From assembly GCF_040149665.1 (NCBI RefSeq), contig NZ_JBEFLP010000001.1, positions 2,542,001-2,606,000 of the forward strand: a DNA stretch of 64,000 bases, given 5' to 3'. Source of the stretch: Sulfitobacter sp. HNIBRBA3233 (GTDB taxonomy: Bacteria > Pseudomonadota > Alphaproteobacteria > Rhodobacterales > Rhodobacteraceae). The translations under genes were made by a program, and so were the position numbers. The notes under the pieces were generated by a model. The model was given only the letters and a program-made list of their open reading frames with translations. It was not told where the DNA came from and made no database searches. Shown in pieces: positions 7,335 through 13,290 of the stretch; the stretch's first letter is position 1, and the number at the start of each line of letters is the position of its first letter.

Positions 7335-9081
7335 GGGTCTCGTGCTTGGCGCCGGGATGGGTCACGGCACCGAGATAGGTAGGCCCGACAAGCTGCGCGT
7401 ATTTCCACAGCGCGCCCGAGGCATAGTTGGTCTCGCGCGGGCCTGTCCACGCTTCGCGGCGCTTGGCGAGCTCGTCGTCCGACAGGTCCACGTCGATGGC
7501 GCCGGTGATCGCGTTGATGGTGATCATGTCGCCGTTCTTCAGCAGCGCGATGGGGCCGCCCATCGCAGCCTCCGGCCCGACGTGGCCCACGCAGAAACCG
7601 CGCGTCGCACCCGAGAACCGCCCGTCGGTGATCAGCGCGACTTTCTTGCCCATGCCCTGCCCGGACAGCGCCGCCGTGGTCGCCAGCATCTCGCGCATAC
7701 CGGGACCGCCGCGCGGACCCTCGTTGCGGATGACGAAGACATCGCCTTCGGAATAGGTGCGGTTCTGCACCGCCTCGAAGGCGTCCTGTTCGCATTCGAA
7801 CACCAGCGCGGGACCGGTGAAGACGATGCTGTCCTCGTCCATGCCCGCGATCTTCACGATGGCGCCTTCCGGGGCGAGATTGCCCTTCAGGCCGACAACG
7901 CCGCCGGTCTTGGAGATCGGATTGGCGACCGAGTGGATGACCTTGCCATCCGCCTCGCGCTCGATCTTGTCGAGCTCTTCGCCCATGGAATAGCCGGTGA
8001 CGGTCAGGCAGTCGGTGTGCAACAGGCCCGCCTTGCGCAGTTCGCGCATCACGACGGGAACACCGCCCACGTCGTAGAGATCCTTGGCGACGTACTGACC
8101 GCCCGGTTTCATATCGACGAAATAGGGCGTGTCGCGGAAGATCTCGCAGACGTCTTCGAGGAAGAAGTCGATGCCGGCCTCATGCGCCATGGCGGGCAGG
8201 TGCAGACCCGCGTTGGTAGAGCCGCCCGTGCAGGCCACGATGCGCGCGGCGTTCTCGAAGGCTTCGCGGGTGCAGATGTCGCGGGCGCGGATGTTCTTTT
8301 CGATCAGGTTCATCACCGCCTTGCCCGACGCGATGGCGTATTCATCGCGGCTCTCGTAGGGCGCGGGCGCGCCAGAGGAGTTGGGCAGCGCAAGGCCGAT
8401 CGCTTCGGAAACGCAGGCCATGGTGTTGGCGGTGAACTGACCGCCGCAGGCCCCCGCAGACGGGCAGGCCACGCGTTCCAGCACATCGAGCGCGGCTTGC
8501 GACATGGTGCCGTTCTGGAAATTGCCGACGGCCTCGAACATGTCCTGCACCGTCAGGTCACGGTCGGCGAAGCCTTCCGGCACATCCGCGCCCTTGGGCG
8601 CCTTGCCCGGCAGGATCGACCCGCCGTACATGAACACCGATGGCACGTTCAGCCGGATCATGGCCATCATCATGCCGGGCAGGGATTTGTCACAACCCGC
8701 GAGCCCGACGAGCGCATCGTAGCAGTGGCCCCGCATGGTCAGCTCGACCGTGTCGGCAATCGCCTCGCGGCTGGCCAGCGACGACCGCATGCCTTCGTGG
8801 CCCATGGCGATGCCGTCGGTGACGGTGATGGTGGTGAATTCGCGCGGCGTGCCCTGTTCGGCTGCAACGCCCACCTTGACCGACTGCGCCTGACGGTTCA
8901 GCGCGATGTTGCACGGCGCGGCCTCGTTCCAGCAGGTCGCCACGCCGACGAGCGGCTGGTGGATCTCTTCCTCCGTCATGCCCATGGCATAGTAATACGA
9001 CCGGTGTGGCGCGCGCGCCGGGCCTTCGGTCACATGGCGGCTGGGCAGTCTGGATTTGTCGAAACGGCTGTTGCTGGACAT
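7315..9081 (-). CDS. ilvD: Dihydroxy-acid dehydratase
   Basis: Dehydrates 2,3-dihydroxy-3-methylbutanoate (and the methylpentanoate homologue) to the 2-oxo acid in valine, leucine and isoleucine synthesis, using an Fe-S cluster. The 588-residue product starts [20 protein letters not shown]. The three cluster cysteines are visible in [25 protein letters not shown] and [32 protein letters not shown] holds the catalytic serine loop. These motifs fit IlvD better than the related 6-phosphogluconate dehydratase Edd. The start at 9081 is preferred because AAGGGAG lies just upstream, and because an extension to 9378 would be unlike the family. Confidence 0.95.
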
Positions 9082-9298
9082 CGGTACGCTCCCTTGTCGT
9101 GTCTTGCAAACTCGATAGGCGAGCGGGGCCGTGCTGGCAAGTCTGCTGCAAGGGGCAGGACCTGATCCGAGCGCGCGTTTCGCCCGCAGGTTTGGCGCTG
9201 GAAGGCCGCGCAGGCGGGACGCGCACAGTGCCTGCGCGTTGTAACCCGTGGTCTGCGGCCCTAGATTGTCCCTACGCCCCTTCACGGAAAGCCAGCCC

Positions 9299-12200
9299 AT
9301 GGAACGCAGCCTGTTCGCCTTCATCTGGAAGTATTCCAAGCGCGACCAGATTTTCCTGCTGGCGTTCACGGTTTTCACCTTTCCCTTTCTCTACGCCACG
9401 CTCGAGCTGCCGAAGCGGATCATCAACGATGCCATCGGCGCCGAGTCTTCTACCGTCGAGGTGTTCGGCAACCAGATCGGGCAGATCGAGTTTCTGGTAG
9501 CGCTGTGTCTGGCGTATCTGGGGGCGGTGATCGCGCACGGCCTGCTGAAGATGCGGCTGAACACCATGAAAGGCGTGCTGGCCGAGCGGATGCTGCGCAG
9601 GTTCCGCTATCGCCTGATTTCGCGGATGATGCGGTTCCCCAAACGCTATTACCAGAACACCAGCCAGGGCGAATTGGTCAGCATGATCACCTCCGAGGCC
9701 GAGCCCATGGGTGGGCTGATGGGCGATTTCATCGCCCAGCCGGTGTTTCAGGCCGGCCAGATGCTGATTATCGTGATCTTCCTGTTCATCCAGTCGTTCT
9801 GGTTCGGTCTGGCCGGTGTCGCGCTGATCCCGTTGCAGGCCTATGTGATCCCGATGCTGCAGCGCCAGATCAACCTTCTGAACAAGGACCGGATCGCGCA
9901 GGTGCGGCTGCTGTCCGCCGAGATCGGCGAAACGGCGGCGGGCATCGCCGACTTGCGCACCAACGGCGGCTGGCGCTTCCGTCTGGCGGCCTTCACGGAC
10001 CGGCTGGGGATGCTTTTCCGCATCCGTTTCCAGATCTACCAGAAGAAATTCTTCATGAAGTTCCTCAACAACTTCATCACCCAGCTTACGCCGTTCTTCT
10101 TCTATCTGGTCGGCGGCTATCTGGCGATCAAGGGCCAGATCACCGTGGGCGCGCTGGTGGCCGCACTCGCGGCCTACAAGGATCTTTCGAGCCCGTGGAA
10201 GGAATTGCTGGCCTATTACAACCAGACGCAGGACATGGGGCTGCGCTGGGAGATCGTCACCGAACGTTTCGCCCCGCGCGGGATGATCGACGAAGCCCTG
10301 TTCGAAGGCACACCGGACGAGATCCCGCACCTCAAGGGGGATATCCATATCCACAATGTCGTGGTGTCCAACGGCGAGGGCGGCAACGTGCTGGAAAACA
10401 TCACGCTTGAAATCCCCAAGGGCGCGCAGGTGGCGGTCAAGGCGTCGACACAGGCCGAACGCCGCGCCTTTGCCGAGCTTCTGACCCGCGAGGTGATGCC
10501 GTCGCGCGGGACGGTCACGATGGGCGGCCACGATATCGCGACCCTGCATCAGGCGGTGATCGCGGCGCGGATCGGCTATGTGCAGGCGCAGCCCTACCTG
10601 TTCAACGGCACCATCGGCGACAACCTGTTGATGTCGCTGCGCACCTCGCCGAAGACGGTGTTGTGGGACCCTGACAAGCGGGATCGCGATGCGATCGAAG
10701 CACGGCGCGCGGGCAACAGCCTCGACAGCCTCAAGGCCGACTGGCTGGACCCCGCGCTGGCCGATCTGCAGAAGGAACAGGACGTCTACGCGTGGTGGTT
10801 CGAACTGAGCCGCGTGCTGAACACCGACGAGGGGATCATCCGTAGCGTCCTGAATTCGCGGATGGACCCCGAAAGGCATCCCGTGCTTGCCAGCCGGCTG
10901 GTGGCCCTGCGCGACGATGTCGAGGCCACGCTGAAGGAGCGCGGATTGGACGGTGCCGTGTACCGCTTCGATCCCGACAGCTTCAACCCGGCGGTGCCGT
11001 TGGCGGGGAACCTTCTGTTCGCGGCACCGCGCCGCGACATTTCCCAGCAGGGGCTGGCCGCCGAAAAGCGGCTGCTCGGGATGATCGTCGAACAGGGGCT
11101 GGCCGAACAGGCCATCGCGATCTCGCAGACACTGGTCGAGACCCTGCACCAGACCTTTGGCCGCGACGGCACCGACCATCCGCTGTTTACCGCGCTGGGC
11201 ATCGAGGCGCAGCTTTACGAGCAGCTGGTGGATATCGCCGCGCGGCGCCGCGACGAGGGCGACGGCGCGTTGAGCGAGGAAGAATTCGCGCTGCTGCTGA
11301 CCGTGCCTTTCGCCTTTACCGCCGAACAGATCGGTCCGGCCTTCCCCGAAAGCTTCAAGGACGAGATTCTGGCGATCCGGCGTACCAGCGCCCCGACGCT
11401 GCGCGAACGCGCGTCGGACCTGTTCGTGCCCATCGCGCCCGAGAACTATCTGCCGCGGCTGACGCTGCTGGAAAACCTGCTCTACGGGCGGGTCTCCAAC
11501 ATGGCGGGCCTGCAGGAGGATCTGATCCTGGACGCGGTGTCGGACATCCTGCGCGAGAACGGTTTGCGCCAGATGGTCGCGTCGAATGTGTTCGACGTGC
11601 CGACAACGATTGGCGGGGCGAACCTGCCGCAATCGATTCACGAGCGCGCCTCGTTCACCCGCGCGGGGATCAAGAAGCCCGATGTGCTGATCTTCGACAA
11701 GGCGCTGATGGGTGGCGATCACGCGGCGGTGCGCAAGCGTCTGCGGGACCTGATGCCCGAGACCACGCAGATTTTCGTCAACGACACGATTGATGCGCCC
11801 GACACCTACGACATGCTGGTCGAGATCAGCCACGGCCGCATCGACGGTGTGGAGGCCGGAGCGGACCCCGCGATCAACGGCGGCGTGTCGGACGACCTGC
11901 GCCGCAAGCTGTCGGTGATCCAGCGCAACGACCTGTTCAGCAATCTCGAACCGCGGGCCCAGCGGCTGCTGGCCTTTGCAGCGCAGTGGTACGAAGCCCC
12001 GGCGGGGACCCGGATTTTCAGCATCGGAGAGCCGCCCGATGCGGCCTATCTGTGTCTGTCGGGCAAGGCGGAAATCTCGTTCACCAACGATGACGGGCGC
12101 GAACAGCATATCTCGACGGTCGAGCCGGGGCGCGTGATCGGCGATCTGGCGGTGATCGTGAACGAACCGCGCTCGGTCAGCCTGACCACGCTGGAGGATA

Positions 12201-12394
12201 CCCGGTTCCTGCGCCTTGGTGCCGCGCAGTTCCGGTCGGTCATCGAAAACGATACCGCCGTGATGATGAGCCTTCTGAAAACCGTCTCAGGCCATCTGAC
12301 CGGCGCGAGCGAGGTGATGCGCGCGGCCAATATTTCCGTGCCGCGCGATTTCGGGCCCTCCGCCCCGCCGCTGCTGCCGGAGGAGGGACGATGA
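9299..12394 (+). CDS. ABC-exporter-like protein with degenerate ATPase domain and C-terminal cNMP-binding domain
   Basis: A 1031-residue protein. Residues 1-320 form an ABC-exporter membrane domain (several hydrophobic helices; [34 protein letters not shown]). Residues about 345-445 are the first half of a nucleotide-binding domain, but the Walker A position reads [18 protein letters not shown]: glycines and the invariant lysine are missing. The Q-loop region is recognisable ([20 protein letters not shown]). Residues about 445-700 are an unusual insertion. The second half resumes with [16 protein letters not shown], then [19 protein letters not shown] instead of LSGGQ, and LIFDKAL, where the catalytic glutamate is Lys; no H-loop histidine. 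Residues about 895-1010 are a cyclic-nucleotide-binding fold ([38 protein letters not shown]). ATP hydrolysis is unlikely. The stop overlaps the CPBP gene by 4 nt. Confidence 0.85.
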
Positions 12395-13290
12395 GGGCGC
12401 TTCTGCCGGATTACGCGATGCACGCGTTGCATACGCGCGCCGCGCAAGGGACCGCCCAGATATGGCGCGTCCTGCTGGCCATCGTGCTGATGGTCGCGGC
12501 CTATATCAGCCTCAGCCTTGTCTACCGCGAGGGACTTTTCGCGCTGATCACACTCACCCCGTCGCTGCAGGAAGAGCTGGGCACGGGCAGTTCCGCGCGC
12601 GCCATGTACCTGATATTGCTCAACTTCGCAGTCATCACGGCGAGCGTGGCCATCGCCGTGCGGGTGGTGCATAGGCGTCCGGCGATCAGCGTTCTGGGGC
12701 CACTGGCGCTGCTGGTGCCGCATTTCGCACGGGTTATGGGGATACTGGTGGTGCTGGGCCTCGTCGTCATGGTGCTGCCCCCCTACGAGATCGGCGGCGC
12801 GCTGGTGCCCCATATGGCGCCGGGCAAATGGGCGCTTTTGCTGCCGGTGTCCCTGATCGCGGTGTTCATCCAGATCAGCGCCGAGGAAGTGCTGTTTCGC
12901 GGCTACCTGCAACAGCAACTGGGCGCGCGGTTCCGGTCGGCGCTGGTGTGGATGGTCCTGCCTTCGGCGCTGTTCGCCATCGGACATTACCAGCCCGCCG
13001 AAGCGGGCGGAAATGCGTGGATCATCGTGGTGTGGGCGTTTGTCTTCGGGATGCTGATGGCCGATCTGACCGCGCGGGCGGGCAATATCGGCCCGGCGCT
13101 GGCGGTCCATTTCGTCAACAACGTCGGCGCGCTGCTGATCACATCGCTGCCCGATACGCTCAGCGGTCTGGCGTTGTTCCACACGCCTTTCGGCATGGAC
13201 GACGAAGCGGCGCTGATGGCGTGGATGCCGGTGGATTTCGCGATGATGCTCTGCATGTGGCTGGCCGCGCGGCTGGCGTTGCGGCGCTGA
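12391..13290 (+). CDS. CPBP-family (Rce1-like) intramembrane metalloprotease
   Basis: A 299-residue polytopic membrane protein with about eight hydrophobic segments. The three CPBP/ABI motifs are present: EE and R in SAEEVLFRGYLQQQLG, a histidine in FAIGHYQP, and H-x3-N in GPALAVHFVNNVG, the residues proposed to form the metal-dependent active site in Rce1-type proteases. In bacteria the family includes bacteriocin immunity or maturation proteins and many of unknown role. The ATG lies inside the stop of the upstream ABC/cNMP gene (ATGA), so production of the two is coupled. Substrate unknown. The family call is firm, proteolytic activity is inferred from intact motifs. Confidence 0.9.
   Translation: MRALLPDYAMHALHTRAAQGTAQIWRVLLAIVLMVAAYISLSLVYREGLFALITLTPSLQEELGTGSSARAMYLILLNFAVITASVAIAVRVVHRRPAISVLGPLALLVPHFARVMGILVVLGLVVMVLPPYEIGGALVPHMAPGKWALLLPVSLIAVFIQISAEEVLFRGYLQQQLGARFRSALVWMVLPSALFAIGHYQPAEAGGNAWIIVVWAFVFGMLMADLTARAGNIGPALAVHFVNNVGALLITSLPDTLSGLALFHTPFGMDDEAALMAWMPVDFAMMLCMWLAARLALRR

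Follow-up and report, generated by a model that had tools for sequence, protein, structure and literature searches.

A family of exporter-like ABC proteins in Alphaproteobacteria with a degenerate ATPase domain and a linked cyclic-nucleotide-binding domain

ABC exporters are defined by their use of ATP. Here, we focused on a window of 64,000 nucleotides (the whole stretch analyzed) from Sulfitobacter sp. HNIBRBA3233, encoding an exporter-like protein whose ATPase domain appeared to have lost nearly all catalytic motifs and which ends in a cNMP-binding domain. This raises the question of what such a protein does in the membrane, and whether the loss is peculiar to this gene or shared by its relatives. 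A first-pass annotation based on the sequence had proposed a pseudo-transporter that may act as a cyclic-nucleotide-gated or scaffold membrane protein rather than as a pump. Searches of the open-licence literature by domain terms yielded no description of the family.

Domain organization of the protein

The gene (9299..12394; this and all following window features lie on the plus strand) is a stop-free open frame of 1031 codons, supported by congeneric homologues and an AlphaFold2 model. A GTG located 51 nt upstream of the ATG is a possible alternative start; the orthologue alignments begin at the ATG. An exporter transmembrane domain is followed by a degenerate ATPase domain and a C-terminal cNMP domain. 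The Pfam search suggested in the first-pass annotation found ABC_membrane at residues 61–290 (E 2.9e-19), which together with conservation supports a type IV exporter-like transmembrane domain at residues 1–330 (9299..10288). It also found cNMP_binding (PF00027) at residues 900–985 (E 4.9e-18; 65.3 bits, cut-off 27.5) within a cNMP (CAP_ED) domain spanning residues 872–1010 (11912..12328). ABC_tran gave only a weak match at residues 370–466, with 18.6 bits against a cut-off of 25 bits. The AlphaFold2 model, predicted from input without plasmid-record sequences, reached a mean pLDDT of 82 and a pTM of 0.67, and its best Foldseek matches are ABC exporters, with TM-scores that are modest over this long multidomain chain. 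The six-helix transmembrane domain of type IV ABC exporters is thus present according to the ABC_membrane match, the model and Foldseek. Directly downstream, the gene of a CPBP (Rce1-like) membrane protease (12391..13290, Pfam PF02517) overlaps the stop codon of the exporter gene.

Between the Q-loop strand region (12 residues, 10574..10609, placed by alignment) and the signature position, the ATPase domain contains a family-specific insertion of about 300 amino acids (residues 446–750, 10634..11548). This insertion is partly an internal duplication: repeat unit 2 (19 residues, 10964..11020) is a duplicate of repeat unit 3 (20 residues, 11429..11488; hhalign E 1.5e-16 between the two), and each is similar to the Q-loop/helical segment over just 21–24 columns (hhalign). 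The first-pass annotation had read the motif loss in this domain correctly and had overlooked the insertion. Compared by sequence and structure with the type IV ABC exporters MsbA, PCAT1 and TmrAB, the protein shares the transmembrane fold and the first half of the ATPase domain, but it differs from them in the missing Walker A, signature, catalytic Glu and H-loop, in the insertion of about 300 residues and in the C-terminal cNMP domain.

Family-wide loss of the ATPase motifs

An alignment of 96 full-length family members was used to locate the catalytic elements. At the Walker A position (residues 378–389, 10430..10465) the glycines and GK(S/T) are lost, at the signature position (residues 774–783, 11618..11647) LSGGQ is replaced, and the H-loop position (residues 824–833, 11768..11797) has no His, with an Asp in its place. 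Walker B reads DVLIFDKAL (residues 795–803, 11681..11707), keeping its Asp and carrying Lys for the catalytic Glu. Re-reading the translation and the alignment confirmed all four degenerate motifs as quoted initially. The Lys, however, is a peculiarity of the window protein, the common state in Rhodobacterales being Gln (18/30).

The same orthologue comparison, likewise proposed at the outset, revealed that degeneration is shared. An intact Walker A of the form GxxGxGK(S/T) was found in 0/96 members and an LSGG signature in 0/96, while 12/96 have DE at Walker B; no member retains more than four of the six canonical ATPase elements. In contrast, the 24 Yej-type ATPases encoded at the same loci, labelled so from gene make-up, are intact in Walker A (24/24), LSGG (23/24) and Walker B DE (24/24), so that the motif loss in the family is not due to chance. 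Outside Rhodobacterales (66 members), the Walker A Lys position holds Lys in 35 members and Arg in another 21, and the Ser/Thr position is occupied by Glu in 31, Asp in 22, His in 5 and Ser in 4; the Mg-ligand positions are therefore lost even in members that retain the Lys. Walker B Asp is present in 10 of these 66 members, the catalytic Glu in 35 and the H-loop His in 19. Among the 30 Rhodobacterales members, Walker A Lys, catalytic Glu and H-loop His are each absent (0/30), and of all motifs only the Walker B Asp persists, in 13/30. Based on these counts, the loss extends through the whole family and goes furthest in the lineage of the window. We had also considered a degeneration confined to Rhodobacterales within an otherwise active family, and rejected it, as the whole family is degenerate, in a milder form outside this order. 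Sequencing error was ruled out as well, since 19 congeneric orthologues at 66–74% identity are stop-free (one is cut by a contig end) and have lost the same motifs.

All domains are under purifying selection, with pN/pS values of 0.16–0.60 and the short C-terminal tail as the exception. The membrane domain is the most conserved part (82–86% identity between orthologues) and the ATPase domain less so. Judged by its sequence, the window protein is very probably a pseudo-ATPase, and the earlier view of a pseudo-transporter, as opposed to a pump driven by ATP, has good support from a degeneracy that runs through the whole family and is both conserved and under purifying selection. Several members outside Rhodobacterales, carrying Walker A Lys, Walker B Glu and H-loop His, may retain residual ATP binding or hydrolysis.

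Distribution, cyclic-nucleotide link and gene neighbourhood

A homologue over the whole length occurs in 24/24 congeneric Sulfitobacter genomes. The window's clade is present in 20/24 of them at 66–74% identity, one copy being contig-cut, and the other four contain a relative at 51–54%. In addition, many congeners and the window's own genome (C2, L021) carry a second homologue at 39–50% identity. For tracing the family more widely, a profile of the insertion region was built from residues 432–772. It detected members in 131/385 sampled Alphaproteobacteria, corresponding to 86/276 genera, and in 38/197 genera of the window's taxonomic family, but no member outside Alphaproteobacteria among 398 sampled Pseudomonadota genomes.

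Several paralogues show other arrangements. In the window's genome, one (L022:6407-7804, G000:C3) consists of the transmembrane domain alone, with 41% identity over residues 1–324 and without ATPase or cNMP domain; it is flanked by genes for a plastocyanin-like protein and a cytochrome c, and has homologues in about half of the congeners. This suggests that an ATPase domain is dispensable for the membrane domain to work. Stand-alone exporter transmembrane domains of a second type, more distantly related (323–364 aa, 25–27% identity), were seen at L029:6360-7454 and L032:6092-7063. The second homologue of the window's genome and a gene in which a class III cyclase is joined to an AAA ATPase domain are arranged divergently (L021:4526-7582 and 7725-10889, G000:C2), the paralogue at L031 is followed by FecR and CHASE2-cyclase genes, and a clade-B member (L026:4276-7313, genome G013) has a type I secretion-like pair of ABC transporter and HlyD genes upstream of it.

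The cNMP domain is a near-universal companion, which supports the cyclic-nucleotide link proposed in the first-pass annotation. Outside Rhodobacterales, a separate cNMP gene lies directly downstream on the same strand within 400 bp in 57/66 members, and the domain is fused in 7/66. A single branch separates fused from split forms (SH-aLRT 99 in a quick, unrooted tree without mixture model). The separate cNMP proteins have a canonical phosphate-binding cassette, GEIAILxxxPRTAT, with Glu in 56/59, Arg in 59/59 and Ala in 58/59, and the cassette Arg is conserved in all 96 cNMP domains compared. In Rhodobacterales, the Arg is kept in 30/30 and Glu is replaced by Asp in 23/30, including the window protein (cassette of 21 residues, 12128..12190). 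Because of this altered cassette, nucleotide binding is less certain in the window's subfamily, where the Asp might make the binding of a ligand weaker or different. Nearby, there is a modest enrichment of class III cyclase genes, at 9/57 loci compared to 2.5 expected (P about 0.001). In PADLOC, the cNMP part matched Pycsar effectors and one NBD matched mads_3; we take both matches to reflect no more than common domains.

Within flanks of mostly about 9 kb per side, the non-Rhodobacterales loci are rich in glycan-cluster genes. The six cluster genes encode two GT28-like and two GT4-like glycosyltransferases, a histidine phosphatase and a polysaccharide deacetylase, the last named after an annotated Azospirillum homologue and without Pfam match; at least two of the six occur at 47/66 loci and at least four at 38/66. 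Yej-type importer genes and a methyltransferase are also frequent. The fused Azospirillum members adjoin the glycan cluster as well, and a fused Rhodobacterales member (L030) sits at the end of one. In the window's subfamily the glycan neighbours are gone: its clade is flanked by ilvD on one side and by the CPBP protease, accD and folC on the other, with the protease directly downstream at L001-L017, L073 and L077. A surface-glycan role of the split family is likely, with a confidence close to even; the link derives from gene neighbourhood and is not seen at the window copy.

The Sinorhizobium meliloti locus connects the split form to published work. We took the downstream LacI regulator as SM_b21272, which is a LacI-family regulator in PMC11387232, and matched it to the annotated gene order. 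Counting back from there places the FkbM gene at SM_b21271, the cNMP gene at SM_b21270, the ABC gene at SM_b21269 and the GT28-like gene at SM_b21265, the last consistent with the “smb21265 glycosyltransferase family protein” of the literature. Production of a surface polysaccharide requires nine genes between smb21252 and smb21271, and an smb21265 mutant is hypersensitive to phazolicin (PMC10128002). Seven of the nine polysaccharide genes are up-regulated under attack by Myxococcus (PMC10315480). By gene order, the family homologue and its cNMP gene (about SM_b21269 and SM_b21270, respectively) would fall inside the region smb21252–smb21271; the main text of the phazolicin study mentions neither of them and leaves the protective polysaccharide uncharacterized (PMC10128002). 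In the record of strain 1021, one extra base on pSymB splits the ABC gene into two ORFs (L135:15685-18436). Strain 2011 has a full-length match without this base, and the split in 1021 may be either a real frameshift or a sequence error.

Competing explanations and a proposed mechanism

Could the family still consist of ATP-dependent flippases or exporters with a non-canonical ATPase site and the cNMP subunit as a regulator? Glycan clusters usually require a flippase or exporter, no other exporter was seen to recur within the analyzed flanks, and some split members retain Lys, Walker B Glu and His, for example L128 with four of the six elements. However, hardly any member retains the Walker A Ser/Thr and none the signature Gly-Gly, and the Rhodobacterales have dispensed with all these motifs except the Walker B Asp in 13/30, which leaves this explanation unlikely. 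We give even less weight to a degenerate half of a heterodimeric exporter that pairs with an intact half encoded elsewhere, as in TM287/TM288, BmrCD or TAP1/TAP2-type transporters. The exporter fold and sequence matches to the heterodimeric exporters TM_0288 and TmrAB fit this idea, and degenerate sites are common in heterodimers (PMC7756269). Within the analyzed flanks, however, no half-transporter gene recurs at the loci, and the nearby ABC genes found there are Yej-type importer ATPases plus one diverged member of the pseudo-ABC family itself. Moreover, to our knowledge the known degenerate halves of heterodimeric exporters retain an ATP-binding Walker A, unlike the Rhodobacterales proteins, in which it is erased.

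A gene on its way to loss in the window's lineage would fit the vanished catalytic motifs and the finding that the second half of the ATPase domain diverges faster than the membrane domain. Such a loss is highly improbable in view of full-length open frames in many genomes, a conserved neighbourhood and the pN/pS values given above for all domains. What we favour, and consider reasonably probable, is a pseudo-ABC exporter that is gated by cyclic nucleotides or serves as a scaffold and is connected with the synthesis of surface glycans, with an ancestral glycan job. Of the initial proposal, the pseudo-ATPase and the cNMP linkage stand, while gating or scaffolding itself is something we infer.

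The proposed mechanism starts from a type IV exporter-fold protein, presumably a homodimer. Its ATPase domain would no longer bind or hydrolyze ATP in the usual manner and would be retained as a coupling module bearing the cNMP domain, so that cAMP or cGMP instead of ATP would set the conformation. The transmembrane part might then either gate the passage of a substrate without ATP or serve as a membrane switch for partner proteins. A cyclic-nucleotide-dependent conformational switch would be the most economical function, and we regard it as about evenly balanced. The ancestral job, visible in most Alphaproteobacteria with the family, would be to help make or export a surface glycan that the glycosyltransferases encoded next to it produce. 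Rhodobacterales have the fused form, often in two copies and with a more degraded ATPase domain, and the chromosomal copy in the window lies apart from any glycan genes. For the whole family, signal-controlled membrane devices are probably a better description than ATP-driven pumps. More tentatively, this may be a class-wide alphaproteobacterial family in which a cyclic nucleotide replaced ATP as the conformational ligand, forming a cAMP/cGMP-gated glycan or lipid conduit or a switch in surface-glycan assembly.

CFTR and SUR1 are known cases of an exporter fold serving as a channel or a regulator and not as a pump, and both CFTR and SUR still bind ATP. The likeness proposed here lies in an exporter fold without pumping, and we claim no sequence relation beyond the superfamily; the ligand differs, being ATP there and, as proposed, a cyclic nucleotide here. 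A combination of CNB domains with ABC-type membrane and ATPase regions was described previously for group 16 of CNB proteins, a group characterized there by AAA-ATPase domains and a quite variable PBC arginine (PMC2246266). Compared by description, our family differs from that group in the Arg kept in 96/96 cNMP domains and in the degenerate ATPase.

If this reading is true, the family would correspond in bacteria to CFTR or SUR, with another ligand; it would be a widespread family in which the fold was kept under selection, the ATPase dropped and a cyclic-nucleotide sensor nearly always attached. It would also provide Alphaproteobacteria with a non-transcriptional membrane effector for cAMP or cGMP, and its S. 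meliloti member would be a candidate component for the uncharacterized polysaccharide on the rhizobial surface, which confers protection from an antimicrobial peptide.
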